Source: a bacterium (Candidatus Blackallbacteria) CG13_big_fil_rev_8_21_14_2_50_49_14 (lineage in GTDB: Bacteria > Cyanobacteriota > Sericytochromatia > UBA7694). Taken from it: a stretch of DNA of 54,162 nt. The translations under genes were made by a program, and so were the position numbers. The number at the start of each line of letters is the position of its first letter. Positions within the stretch are counted from its first letter, which is position 1. The DNA lies in contig PFGG01000043.1 of the NCBI GenBank assembly GCA_002783405.1, forward strand, positions 1 through 54,162. Direction: 5' to 3'. The notes under the pieces were generated by a model. That model saw only the letters and a program-made list of their open reading frames with translations, did not search any database and was not told the DNA's origin. This document shows positions 5,676-9,640 of this stretch, one piece after another.

Positions 5676-7202
5676 GTGAACGCGCTGACAGAAAAAATCC
5701 GGTCCGGTCTCTGCCGTTTTGTCGGTGAGATCCTTCTGGAAGCCGGCCTGGTTTCTGCGCAGGATCTGGCTCAGGCAGTAGAAATTCAAAAAGAAACCCA
5801 TGAACTCATTGGGCAAATTCTCGTGCGCAATGGGTGTTTGAGTCAGCAGGAACTGGTTGATGTTTTGGAATTGCAACTGAATAACCGTTTGGATCGTTCC
5901 CGCCGCCTGCATAAACATTTGGGTGAAATTTTGCTTGAGAATCAAGCCATTAGCCGCTGGCAGTTGGCAAAGGCCCTGCATGAACAGGGCGTACGTGAGG
6001 CTAAAATTGGTCAGGTCTTGGTCAATTTAGGCTATACCTCTCGTGGCAAAGTAGAGCAGGCCCTCAGTGATCAGGCCATTGGTGCGATTGCTCAACGCAG
6101 TGCCCGACGTGTTTCAATGGGTGAACTTTTGCTGAAAACAGATCGTCTGACTCCCGAGCAATTGCATCTGGCTCTGGAAGAACAGCGTGAAACCCACGAT
6201 TATTTGGGCAATGTGCTCGTACGCCAGAAGGTGCTGACAGAAGATGAACTCGAAGACGTTTTAACCACGCAACTGTGGATGCAATATGCATCAGGGGGCA
6301 GTGGCCACCAAGGCCAGGCCGCTCCTCAACCCGTTCGTAAAAAATTAGGTGAAATTCTGGTGGATACCCACCAGCTCAGCCGTGAACAGTTGGAAACAGC
6401 CGTCGAAGAACAACACCGCAGTGGCCTGCGCCGTTTGGGCGATATTCTTGTTGAAAAAGGACTTTTGCCTTTTCAGGAACTGATGCGTGCCCTGCGTCTG
6501 CAGAAACGTCTGGCCAATTTGGCGATGAGTTCGGTGCTGGGGGCTACTTTACTTGCCGCCTGCGGCACGCCGACCGTTCCCCTGCAACCCATGATGTATG
6601 GGGACGTTACCCCCACCATGATGACCCAATCTGTTTCGACGGCCCAGGTTTTATCCGGCCCGTTCAAGGTTTTACAGGTGGGAGAAGGTCAGCGTATCAA
6701 GATTTACCAGAATGGCAGCAAGGTACTTGAAAATGTGCCTTTTTTCCGCCAAGGCAATGACAATACCTGTGGCCAGGCTGTTTTGACCTCGCTCTTGAAC
6801 TATTGGGGCCTTCAGATGACCTACCAGCAGGTGGTGGATCAGGCCAACCCGAATAATTTGCCCACAACCGATGATGCCATCACCAATTATCTGCGCAAGA
6901 AAGGGCTCAAAGCCCAGGATTATCGCAGTGGTCAGTTAGATCATCTGATCTCCCAGATCAATAAAGGGCGCCCCACCCCGGTTTTGCTGGATTTTGGGGG
7001 GCTCTCCCAGGAGCACTATGTGCTGGTGGTGGGCTATAACCAGAAAAAAGGCACCTTGGTCATGCACGACAGCCTGGAAGGGCCCTACGTGGAAATGGAT
7101 ATGAATCTTTTTCAGAAGATGTGGGATAACAGCTCAATCCGCCGCGTGCATATCTTTGCCGGTGATAACTACAAACGCCTCTATTTTGACGTTTTTCGTT
7201 AA
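5676..7202 (+). CDS. Fusion of four MshEN-like units, internal lipobox and C39-like peptidase
   Basis: The 508-residue protein begins with eight half-repeats of the pattern LGxxL-x(6-8)-L-x3-L-x2-Q, arranged as four pairs at about 16-67, 81-133, 148-199 and 224-276. This is the MshEN layout; in type II secretion and MSHA ATPases such a domain binds cyclic di-GMP. A basic stretch, a hydrophobic segment and a lipobox LAAC (293-296, Cys296) follow. The C-terminal domain has the C39-like cysteine peptidase triad: Cys365 in NDNTCGQAVL, His447 in EHYVLVVGYN, and Asp465. The start is GTG at 5676 behind AGGGAG. ATG at 6483 (Met270) sits behind AGGA and would give a normal lipoprotein precursor. Tandem terminators follow. 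The substrate is unknown. Confidence 0.85.
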   Translation: MNALTEKIRSGLCRFVGEILLEAGLVSAQDLAQAVEIQKETHELIGQILVRNGCLSQQELVDVLELQLNNRLDRSRRLHKHLGEILLENQAISRWQLAKALHEQGVREAKIGQVLVNLGYTSRGKVEQALSDQAIGAIAQRSARRVSMGELLLKTDRLTPEQLHLALEEQRETHDYLGNVLVRQKVLTEDELEDVLTTQLWMQYASGGSGHQGQAAPQPVRKKLGEILVDTHQLSREQLETAVEEQHRSGLRRLGDILVEKGLLPFQELMRALRLQKRLANLAMSSVLGATLLAACGTPTVPLQPMMYGDVTPTMMTQSVSTAQVLSGPFKVLQVGEGQRIKIYQNGSKVLENVPFFRQGNDNTCGQAVLTSLLNYWGLQMTYQQVVDQANPNNLPTTDDAITNYLRKKGLKAQDYRSGQLDHLISQINKGRPTPVLLDFGGLSQEHYVLVVGYNQKKGTLVMHDSLEGPYVEMDMNLFQKMWDNSSIRRVHIFAGDNYKRLYFDVFR

Positions 7203-7316: not shown

Positions 7317-7441
7317 TCAATGTGACTTTTCGCTTTGAGTTGGATCATGGACAACTCCCATCAGGTAAATGATTTGGTTACGTTGTCCGATAAAGAAGAA
7401 GGGACGGTTGACCTCGATCTTGTAAACATGGTCAGCCAAAA
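7317..7441 (-). pseudogene. C-terminal remnant of a second serpin gene
   Basis: Reading the minus strand to the TGA at 7317-7319 gives about 40 residues that end a serpin: ADHVYKIEVNRPFFFFIG, then QIIYLMGVVHDPTQ and a short basic tail. This matches the conserved serpin end, in which a hydrophobic strand is followed by ILFMGRVxNP. It also resembles the end of the intact serpin just upstream (TILYMGIVNDPSQ). There is no start codon or body. The remnant is joined at about 7440-7450, in a different frame, to a truncated IS256-type transposase. It is best read as the 3' end of a tandem serpin copy destroyed by an insertion and deletion. Confidence 0.75.
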
Positions 7442-7606
7442 GAGGCGGTAATCATACCTGCTATAGCCCAGTTCAGCCTCTAACTCCGCTTCCAGCATGG
7501 TTTCAAATGTTTCTTTGTAGATGTCTTTAACCAGACTGTTAATATCTTCTATTGATTTGATTGCGCCGGATTGAACCAAATCTTTTAATAACTCTTTTCT
7601 TTGCAT
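7442..7606 (-). pseudogene. IS256-family transposase, N-terminal fragment
   Basis: About 55 residues match the start of IS256-type (mutator class) transposases: MQRKELLKDLVQSGAIKSIE, a helix ending FETMLEAELEAELGYSRYDY, then an abrupt loss of homology. The DDE catalytic domain, normally a further 340 residues or so, is missing. The frame continues by chance through the serpin remnant to 7361. ATG at 7606 keeps a good GGAGG ribosome site. The fragment cannot transpose. Confidence 0.85.
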
Positions 7607-7675
7607 CTTTTTCCTCCGGGGTTCTTTTAATTTTAGCTTCTCTGGAGGTTTTTACGCTACTTATGTTACACTCTC
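7442..7675 (-). mobile_element. Truncated IS256-type element with one end preserved
   Basis: The element covers the transposase N-terminus plus its upstream leader. At 7648-7675, read on the minus strand, GAGAGTGTAACATAAGTAGC followed by GTAAAAA resembles the terminal repeats of IS256-family elements (GTGT near the tip, GTAAA inside). This puts the preserved tip about 17 bases beyond the serpin stop. The other end was lost at the junction with the serpin remnant near 7442. The terminal repeat assignment is tentative because no partner end exists to compare. Confidence 0.55.
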
Positions 7676-7691: not shown

Positions 7692-9065
7692 TCAACCCTG
7701 GCTGGGATCATTGACAATGCCCATATAGAGAATGGTATTATAATTGCCGTAAATAATATATAAATAAGGCTTGTTGAGAATAAAATTTATTTTGGGACGA
7801 TTATCCCCAAAATCCTGTCCCGTTGATTTTTCTTTTTCTTTGTTTATCCCATTTTCATTAAAAGAAACTTTGTTTGCATGTAAAATATGAACGGGTGTTT
7901 TCGCTAAATTTTTTATCCCTAATTGCTCAATCATTGGTATAAGATCATGGCTTTGTTTTTGATTCCAAATGGGAAGAACTACCTGATTAATATCTTTGAG
8001 TTCTTGCGTTTCAATTAACTTTTCCCATTGCTCAACTGAAAAGGTTTGCGCCCAATCTAAAGCTTTTTCTTCTTTGGGTAAAATCGTCATCATGATGCAA
8101 GATCTTGTGGCTTGCGTCAAAGTTTGCGTATTGTAAAGTTCAGAATATAAAACTTCTTTTCTGTCATCAATCGAAAGATTATTCGACAAAGAAGGATCGA
8201 TGCGCATGAATCGCTGTTGTTTTTTTTCTTTTAAGGCCGTTTCAAACAGATCTGTTTTAGATTGACCTGTGTAAAAAGTATAAAGCCAATGAGAACTTAA
8301 ATAGAATGAATTAAAAAATAGATTTTGTAAATCCAATGTTTGAGGGGGTATTGAAATTAGGTCAATGTTTTGGTTTTGGGTGAGACTCTTGACCCAATCA
8401 TTGATTTCCTTGAGAGGATTTGAACTGTTTCTCCTGAATTCAGTGGCATATTTTCTTGCAAAAGCTGGAGTGATGCTGGCGTTATTTTCTTGAGAGAAGA
8501 AAAGGTTGATAAGTTTTAACTGGTTCCAATCAGTGGGTATGTCCAACGTGAACTCAGACAAATCCAAAGTTAAGGATTGAGAGTGATTTTCTTCATTGCT
8601 CATAGCTCTTAAAAATAATGAAAATTCGTATTCTATTTGAAAATCGCTCATGCCTTCAATGTGTAGAGCTTTACCGAGAGATACTTTTGACTCTCCTTCT
8701 GCATTTTGATAGAACAGCGTGAGCATGGCTCCTATTGCAAATGGAGAAAAAAGAAGATTCTTATTTGGCTGCATGTCTTTGCTCAAGATATGCAATAAAT
8801 CAAAGGCCAGCAGGCGATAACCCCGCAGTAACTTGCTTTGATTCAATTCAGTCTGTTCTTGCAAACTCAAAGGAGACAAACTGGGCATTGCTGTGGGGGT
8901 GGGCTGAGGGCTTGCACTGGGTGCTCTTTGCACAGAAGTCTGAACAGGAGAAGGTTCAGTCTGTGCTTGTGGCCATTGGCAAGCCTGAGCTGTGAGCAGG
9001 AGGAGCCCCATGCTCAAGCATTGTCCGAGGTGTTTATAAGCTTGACGTTTTATAGGTTTATTCAT
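7692..9065 (-). CDS. Serpin-like lipoprotein
   Basis: The 457-residue protein has a signal sequence with a Cys at position 29 after LLLLTAQA (an atypical lipobox), then a Pro/Ser/Thr-rich linker (about 32-66) and a serpin fold. Serpin features are SPFAIGAMLTLFYQNAEGES near the N-terminus, an NSFYLSSHWLYTF strand and the C-terminal TILYMGIVNDP. The hinge of the reactive loop (about 404-416), which needs small residues for inhibition, reads NENGINKEKEKSTG. The charged P12-P9 residues argue against classical protease trapping. The start follows the TGA of the EPTP fragment by six bases. Local composition is AT-rich, which suggests transfer. A structural role is possible. Confidence 0.85.
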   Translation of the reverse strand: MNKPIKRQAYKHLGQCLSMGLLLLTAQACQWPQAQTEPSPVQTSVQRAPSASPQPTPTAMPSLSPLSLQEQTELNQSKLLRGYRLLAFDLLHILSKDMQPNKNLLFSPFAIGAMLTLFYQNAEGESKVSLGKALHIEGMSDFQIEYEFSLFLRAMSNEENHSQSLTLDLSEFTLDIPTDWNQLKLINLFFSQENNASITPAFARKYATEFRRNSSNPLKEINDWVKSLTQNQNIDLISIPPQTLDLQNLFFNSFYLSSHWLYTFYTGQSKTDLFETALKEKKQQRFMRIDPSLSNNLSIDDRKEVLYSELYNTQTLTQATRSCIMMTILPKEEKALDWAQTFSVEQWEKLIETQELKDINQVVLPIWNQKQSHDLIPMIEQLGIKNLAKTPVHILHANKVSFNENGINKEKEKSTGQDFGDNRPKINFILNKPYLYIIYGNYNTILYMGIVNDPSQG

Positions 9066-9071
9066 TTTCCC

Positions 9072-9338
9072 TCACTCAAACCTGAAGATTTCAGAGTTGC
9101 CATGAAAGCCGTCGAGGTCGTGGGTGTTGGCCAGGGCCATGAGATAGGTTTGTTCACCGACCTGCATGAAATTCCAGTCAAAGGCTCCTCCTGTGGTATC
9201 GATGATCTCACGCAACTGAAACTTAACGCCATCCCAGTGATAAAGACGAGAGGTATTGTCTCCATTGGCCACAATCAGATAATCTTCACCCTTGACTTCA
9301 AAATGCTTCCAATGGCGGGCTGAGGCCCAAAAGGACAC
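9072..9338 (-). pseudogene. EPTP-repeat protein fragment (C-terminal end)
   Basis: The 88 residues contain two EPTP-type beta-propeller repeats: WKHFEVKGEDYLIVANGDNT with LYHWDGVKF, then AFDWNFMQVGEQTYLMALAN with a final IFRFE. Full EPTP propellers carry about seven repeats, so this looks like the tail of a larger surface protein. A TGA lies directly before the GTG at 9338, and no repeat is visible further upstream in any frame. AGGG lies six bases before that GTG, so a short functional protein cannot be ruled out. It is followed after six bases by the serpin-like gene, so the two were probably co-transcribed. Confidence 0.55.
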
Positions 9339-9640
9339 TCAACCCTATCAACGAAAAGGTTGCAAAAAATAGACATGCGAAAAAACGCCCCTCAAGTGCT
9401 GGCCTTTAATGGCTCATGGCAGTGATCCTGTGCTGAGAATAGAATAACACTTCAAAAAAACCTGTCAATATCTGGTTTTTGTCATATTTTTGTCTAAATG
9501 TCATAAAAGCTGTTTTTTCAGATTGAATCGAAGGCTCAAAAGAGGGGGCAAAAGCAGATGGGCTATGTGACAAAACAATTAATAAAATTTTACATAAAGA
9601 TGACGAAAAAGTTTGAAAAATTTTTGAAACGGGGGGTATT
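9339..9640. other. AT-rich intergenic region, no gene seen
   Basis: About 300 bases lie between the EPTP fragment and the lpxD stop. The region is AT-rich, with three TGTCA/TGTCT motifs near 9460-9505 and no coding signal on either strand. It probably contains eroded sequence from the lost 5' part of the EPTP gene and a promoter for the serpin locus. No convincing terminator for lpxD is visible. Confidence 0.5.

Follow-up and report, generated by a model that had tools for sequence, protein, structure and literature searches.

Miropin, tengpin, and thermopin, like the hub-like serpins and chloropin, are inhibitory serpins of prokaryotes, and orphan immunity genes are partner genes that are retained after the partner enzyme has been lost. 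The hinge ExGTEAAAA is reported in almost all hub-like prokaryotic serpins (PMC8233489) and in chloropin (PMC10090351), and N-terminal transport peptides are described for most prokaryotic serpins (PMC8233489). As reported for α-1-antitrypsin, the even-numbered hinge positions are those accommodated by β-sheet A; Asp at P14 and P12 makes the protein non-inhibitory, and with Asp at P10 and P8 inhibition is weakened but still present, with an SI of 4.56 (PMC3691886). The approach taken here has a precedent in plant serpins, which were judged non-inhibitory by their hinge residues (PMC7692276). The Group U serpins of Streptomyces were proposed to be non-inhibitory from changes in the breach and shutter, and many of them keep the hinge (PMC8233489); the account of chloropin calls it unknown whether prokaryotic serpins have any non-inhibitory function (PMC10090351). 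Potempins of Tannerella forsythia are described as small lipoproteins whose genes share operons with those of the secreted KLIKK proteases that they inhibit (PMC7296668). Our literature searches returned no paper combining Sericytochromatia with serpin and none combining orphan immunity with serpin.

The serpin-like lipoprotein and its hinge

The window, by which we mean the whole stretch of 54,162 nucleotides that was analyzed, from a relative of the cyanobacteria, holds a serpin-like lipoprotein gene at exactly the position and on the strand given for it in an earlier note (Table 1). Membership of the serpin superfamily, as proposed there, was borne out by a full-length match to PF00079 above the curated cut-off (residues 86 to 454 on model positions 6 to 370; 101 bits versus a cut-off of 27; E 9.6e-29). 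A profile built from the window protein and three relatives matched solved serpins along the domain, conserpin at 9e-37, and an NCBIfam search with the window protein gave no match up to E 0.01. Confidence was low in both AlphaFold models, each computed from five alignment rows (mean pLDDT 38.6 and 50.4); for the second of these low-confidence models (pTM 0.56), the 50 best PDB matches were all serpins, with TM of about 0.36 to 0.47 and rmsd of 17 to 20.

Table 1. Features at the serpin-like locus, with positions in the window
Feature	Position	Strand	Details and basis
Serpin-like lipoprotein gene	7692..9065	-	457 aa; coordinates exact
Putative signal peptide with probable lipidation Cys (residues 1-29)	8979..9065	-	Sequence; Cys29 conservation
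Serpin domain	7704..8810	-	Pfam match
Degenerate hinge NENGINKEKEKSTG	7818..7859	-	Residues 403-416; P14 Ile, P12/P10/P8 Lys
Subtilase lipoprotein 3'-end remnant, EPTP propeller, 88 codons	9072..9338	-	PF03736 8e-15 and homology
Leader	9311..9624	-	87% identity over 314 bases to G000:C51:5159-5470
Promoter-like site TTGACA-16-TATTCT	9441..9468	-	Consensus match only; both hexamers unchanged in C51 leader
Mutator/IS256-type insertion sequence fragment (transposase N-terminus)	7445..7675	-	90% to G000:C33; PF00872 below cut-off
3'-end remnant of second serpin-like gene VNRPFFFIGQRNQIIYLMGVVHDPT	7317..7451	-	Homology to G001 295k

At the N terminus, basic residues are followed by a hydrophobic stretch, Cys29, and a linker rich in Pro, Ser, and Thr. 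The lipoprotein-like start noted earlier held up, as the signal-like N terminus is joined by a Cys29 that is invariant across the window protein and four relatives in the alignment, though the lipobox (AQA-C) is imperfect.

The hinge register was anchored on E404 as P17 and G406 as P15, so that the hinge reads E-N-G-I-N-K-E-K-E-K, with Lys at each of the three sheet-facing positions that follow P14. The inhibitor consensus from P17 to P9, ExGTEAAAA with small residues at P12 to P9, is replaced by ENGINKEKE, and the claim that the hinge is unlike those of inhibitors was thereby upheld. With Lys at P12, P10, and P8 of the stretch that would have to insert into β-sheet A, the window protein probably cannot trap proteases, and we regard it as a serpin variant that is probably non-trapping. 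The loop itself is full-length, with 27 residues from P17 to NKPY; the corresponding figure is 30 in 33 of 52 listed rows.

We compared this hinge with those of the serpins at the fetched loci, a set whose 52 rows include L040 twice and L019, which was mis-anchored and is canonical by eye. Among 51 anchored hinges, 47 were ExGT, with P14, P12, P10, and P8 all free of charged, amide, and His residues. The remaining four read x-G-I and belong to the window protein and to three paralogs from Candidatus Sericytochromatia bacterium MAG_89 (G001; JADMKE010000016.1), a sister of the window genome (G000) in the same genus: EQGINTQQAR (296k), KNGINVEDSF (295k), and EQGIDGPLVS (278k). The count leaves out G000:C21 and G011:C379, which have no recognizable hinge, the viral locus L136, and G001:C23b, whose canonical EKGT hinge was missed through a C-terminal fusion. 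The hinge of 278k (EQGIDGPLVSS), the closest relative of the window protein, is free of charge at P14, P12, P10, and P8 and has Pro at P11, so that the x-G-I proteins are not uniformly dead by charge.

The x-G-I clade and the distribution of serpins

A tree of 29 rows placed the window protein with 278k (96/81), then both with 296k (100/96), and all four proteins came together with 295k (93/89). When the hinge and later columns were removed and two hinge-less rows omitted, the same groups were recovered at 87/82, 95/93, and 88/91. The four proteins, with the hinge pattern E/K-x-G-I-N/D, are thus a small clade, seen in two genomes of one Sericytochromatia genus. The x-G-I hinge is not a chance feature, since 47 of the 51 hinges are ExGT and all four x-G-I hinges lie in one clade. 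The serpin core also varies within the clade: the aligned serpin domain of 296k is 78 residues shorter than that of the window protein, and 295k matches the serpin model only at positions 3 to 75 and 224 to 370, its middle being unmatched. G000:C21 and G011:C379 were considered as further members and left out, as their branches are long and their place in the tree is uncertain.

The earlier remark that serpins are uncommon in bacteria does not suit this lineage, as serpin matches were found in 11 of the 18 genomes of the class. The window genome has six serpin ORFs (seven matches), four of them with canonical hinges, and MAG_89 has seven serpin ORFs from nine matches. Across the phylum, 66 of 386 genomes gave a match, with at most four candidates scored per genome; no x-G-I hinge was seen outside the two genomes of the genus among the fetched loci, which represent part of the phylum matches. 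A scan of genome contigs returned only two loci, both in MAG_89. A scan of viral contigs gave a single distant locus (L136), plasmids gave a single distant serpin (Halolamina), and phage DNA gave no match.

Several other serpin arrangements were encountered in the two genomes. The sixth serpin-like lipoprotein of the window genome (L060 8608-10035, on G000:C21) is very divergent: no hinge can be recognized in it, and the serpin model matches it only in broken form. Tandem canonical serpin lipoproteins adjoin a gene for a PhyH-like dioxygenase at L061 (G000:C52) and L058 (G001:C23); the dioxygenase was matched in G001 and judged by sequence likeness in G000. A 1078-aa frame in G001 joins one of these serpins to carboxypeptidase-regulatory and Big_5 domains.

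Putative subtilase operons and their remnants

The putative MAG_89 operon that holds two of the clade members reads, on one strand, lipoprotein, canonical serpin, subtilase, serpin-like 296k, subtilase 3'-end fragment, and serpin-like 295k. The first lipoprotein has no Pfam match and is related to lipoproteins upstream of other subtilases. The canonical serpin (hinge VNETGTEAAAV) overlaps by 4 bases with the gene for a 1415-aa subtilase lipoprotein, and the likely ATG of 296k lies one base past the subtilase stop, a GTG further up being also possible. The decayed copy of the subtilase 3' end gave 84% over 61 aa. Elsewhere in MAG_89, the 278k gene overlaps by 4 bases with an NHL-propeller lipoprotein gene that is 27 to 32% identical to the NHL genes beside subtilases on G000:C51 and G001:C41. 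With the window included, a subtilase 3' end lies directly ahead of three of the four clade members, and an NHL-propeller gene of the same operon type lies ahead of the fourth.

In the window, the frame directly upstream of the serpin-like gene aligned with the extreme C termini of three subtilase lipoproteins from G001. Identities were 39% over 84 aa (the subtilase on G001:C41, E 6e-20), 36% over 84 aa, and 39% over 82 aa, with E values between 6e-20 and 4e-18 against a set of 28 proteins. EPTP repeats occurred in two of the eight genomes searched, once in the window genome, in this remnant, and 21 times in MAG_89, where all matches fall in three ORFs that each combine seven EPTP stretches with a Peptidase_S8 domain. 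Given this confinement of EPTP to subtilase ORFs and the C-terminal homology, we infer that the frame represents the 3' end of a subtilase gene, with its stop codon six bases ahead of the serpin-like ATG and GAGGG just before that ATG.

Further upstream is the leader, whose counterpart on G000:C51 precedes an NHL-propeller lipoprotein gene and then a subtilase lipoprotein gene cut short by the contig end. The leader homology stops about where the subtilase homology starts, which points to a deletion junction at about 9311-9326. A promoter scan gave five promoter-like sites where shuffled sequence gave 1.0 on average, such consensus matches being no proof of promoters. The leader also contains a short hydrophobic frame, LFFATFSLIGLSVLLGLSPP (window 9311-9400, minus strand), similar by eye in the C51 leader, which could be a small leader peptide. 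No tRNA was found in a scan of the window.

On the other side, downstream, the insertion sequence fragment (231 bases) starts 16 bases past the serpin-like stop and adjoins the final codons of another serpin-like gene, the second at this locus. This remnant is closest to 295k, the second serpin-like gene of the MAG_89 operon (51.5% over 33 aa, E 2.5e-8 among 28 proteins). Beyond it, a single ORF at window 5676-7202 (plus strand) combines four stretches of MshE-type c-di-GMP-binding repeats (E 6e-52) with a C39 peptidase domain and has an internal lipobox-like LGATLLAAC; it may be a c-di-GMP sensor in the cytoplasm that is linked to an exported peptidase, or else two separate genes taken for one.

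Subtilases are numerous in both genomes, with 24 Peptidase_S8 matches in the window genome and 30 in MAG_89. Among subtilase ORFs of more than 1000 aa, a serpin-like gene, as judged by serpin matches, stands behind one of nine in MAG_89 and none of three in the window genome, one of the latter running off its contig. We rejected a link to subtilases as a general rule for serpins: eight genomes, many of whose contigs are short, were searched for both families, and only one of 16 canonical loci (302k, in G001) had a subtilase match within 10 kb. Among the many Peptidase_S8 matches of the window genome and MAG_89 are large lipoproteins of more than 1000 aa with swapped C-terminal modules, and a related lipoprotein gene stands upstream in five of the operons compared. 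Two of the G001 proteins (L065 1620-5867 and L078 6055-10206) are 95% identical over their last 386 residues and about 23% over the rest, which reads as a recent exchange of C-terminal modules.

A possible protease partner and its place among known systems

The reading we favor, whose prospects of being right and of being wrong we consider equal, is that the window protein is a non-trapping serpin-fold partner of a surface-subtilase operon, left behind after loss of the protease. The canonical serpin of the MAG_89 operon would be the true trap, and the x-G-I proteins divergent copies. Export and lipidation would bring the serpin-like lipoprotein to the side of the co-encoded protease, where it would bind the protease or its propeller without suicide trapping and so serve the producing cell as shield or regulator. 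In the window, what survives of such an operon is its leader and 3' end, its middle being deleted, so that the serpin-like gene now stands almost directly behind the leader, its protease partner presumably gone. This putative role as an immunity-like, non-trapping binder is suggested by the repeated position of subtilase or propeller genes ahead of clade members and by the remnants and leader in the window; the association is known from two genomes only and is a minority state among the large subtilase ORFs, which counts against it, as do the charge-free sheet-facing positions of 278k and the inhibition left in α-1-antitrypsin with Asp at P10 and P8 (PMC3691886).

A decaying relic is a rather unlikely reading: after deletion of the protease gene and disruption of the next gene by an insertion sequence, the serpin-like gene would have no role left and be nearing loss. 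The deletion junction on one side and the insertion sequence and second-gene remnants on the other are what decay would leave, and the hinge has been lost in two other serpin-like proteins as well. The GC content of the gene, 37.6% versus 50 to 56% in four neighboring genes, would also fit a decaying or mobile island; two other measured genes of the window are lower still, at 33% and 36%. Against decay, the frame of 457 codons is intact and still encodes the Cys, a number of serpin core residues, and ILYMGIVNDPS at the C terminus. In MAG_89, the paralog preceded by a propeller gene rather than a subtilase is intact too and shares 4 bases with the propeller gene. The x-G-I hinge, being common to the clade, would moreover predate the deletion in the window genome. 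With 87% identity still left between the leader and its counterpart, the deletion may have been a recent one, and an intact frame then neither proves later selection nor says much about present use.

The earlier note suggested a binding or structural role on the cell surface, which is vague; a general serpin of this sort, engaged in adhesion, ligand carriage, or chaperoning and unrelated to the neighboring protease, appears quite unlikely to us: the lipoprotein-like signal and linker would suit it, and non-inhibitory serpins with such roles are described in animals and plants (PMC8233489; PMC7692276), but the position directly behind subtilase 3' ends recurs. That the protein is still an inhibitor despite its hinge, as a slow or cross-class trap or a tight substrate-like inhibitor, we hold to be highly improbable, since the full-length loop, the retained P17 Glu and P15 Gly, the charge-free sheet-facing positions of the closest relative, and the reported tolerance of α-1-antitrypsin for Asp at P10 and P8 (PMC3691886) are set against three sheet-facing Lys, P12 included, the shortened domain of 296k, and the unmatched middle of 295k.

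Extended beyond this locus, the partner reading would make the x-G-I proteins cognate, non-trapping immunity or regulator serpins of modular surface-subtilase operons that persist as orphans after protease loss, a serpin counterpart of potempins and of orphan immunity genes; we offer this wider proposal tentatively and regard it as doubtful. The changed hinge, one shortened core, and the repeated physical link to one protease type make the question answerable on a concrete pair. The clade shows how serpins may turn from traps to partners, with canonical serpins remaining in the genome as controls.

The window protein shares with the inhibitory hub-like serpins and chloropin the serpin domain, the full-length loop, P17 Glu, and P15 Gly, and departs from their ExGTEAAAA in reading ENGINKEKE. 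Like the Group U serpins of Streptomyces, it is a bacterial serpin predicted to have lost inhibition; unlike them, it has a changed hinge and keeps, by eye in the alignments, the Asn, Trp, His, and P17 Glu that we take to be shutter and breach residues. The likeness to orphan immunity genes would lie in a partner gene kept after loss of its enzyme. Potempin genes precede those of their proteases and are not described as serpins in the account cited (PMC7296668), whereas here the serpin-like gene follows the subtilase gene. Potempins are nevertheless the closest working parallel, in that a lipoprotein gene is arranged in an operon with a secreted protease gene, an arrangement found by gene order and spacing in MAG_89 and represented in the window by the protease remnant.
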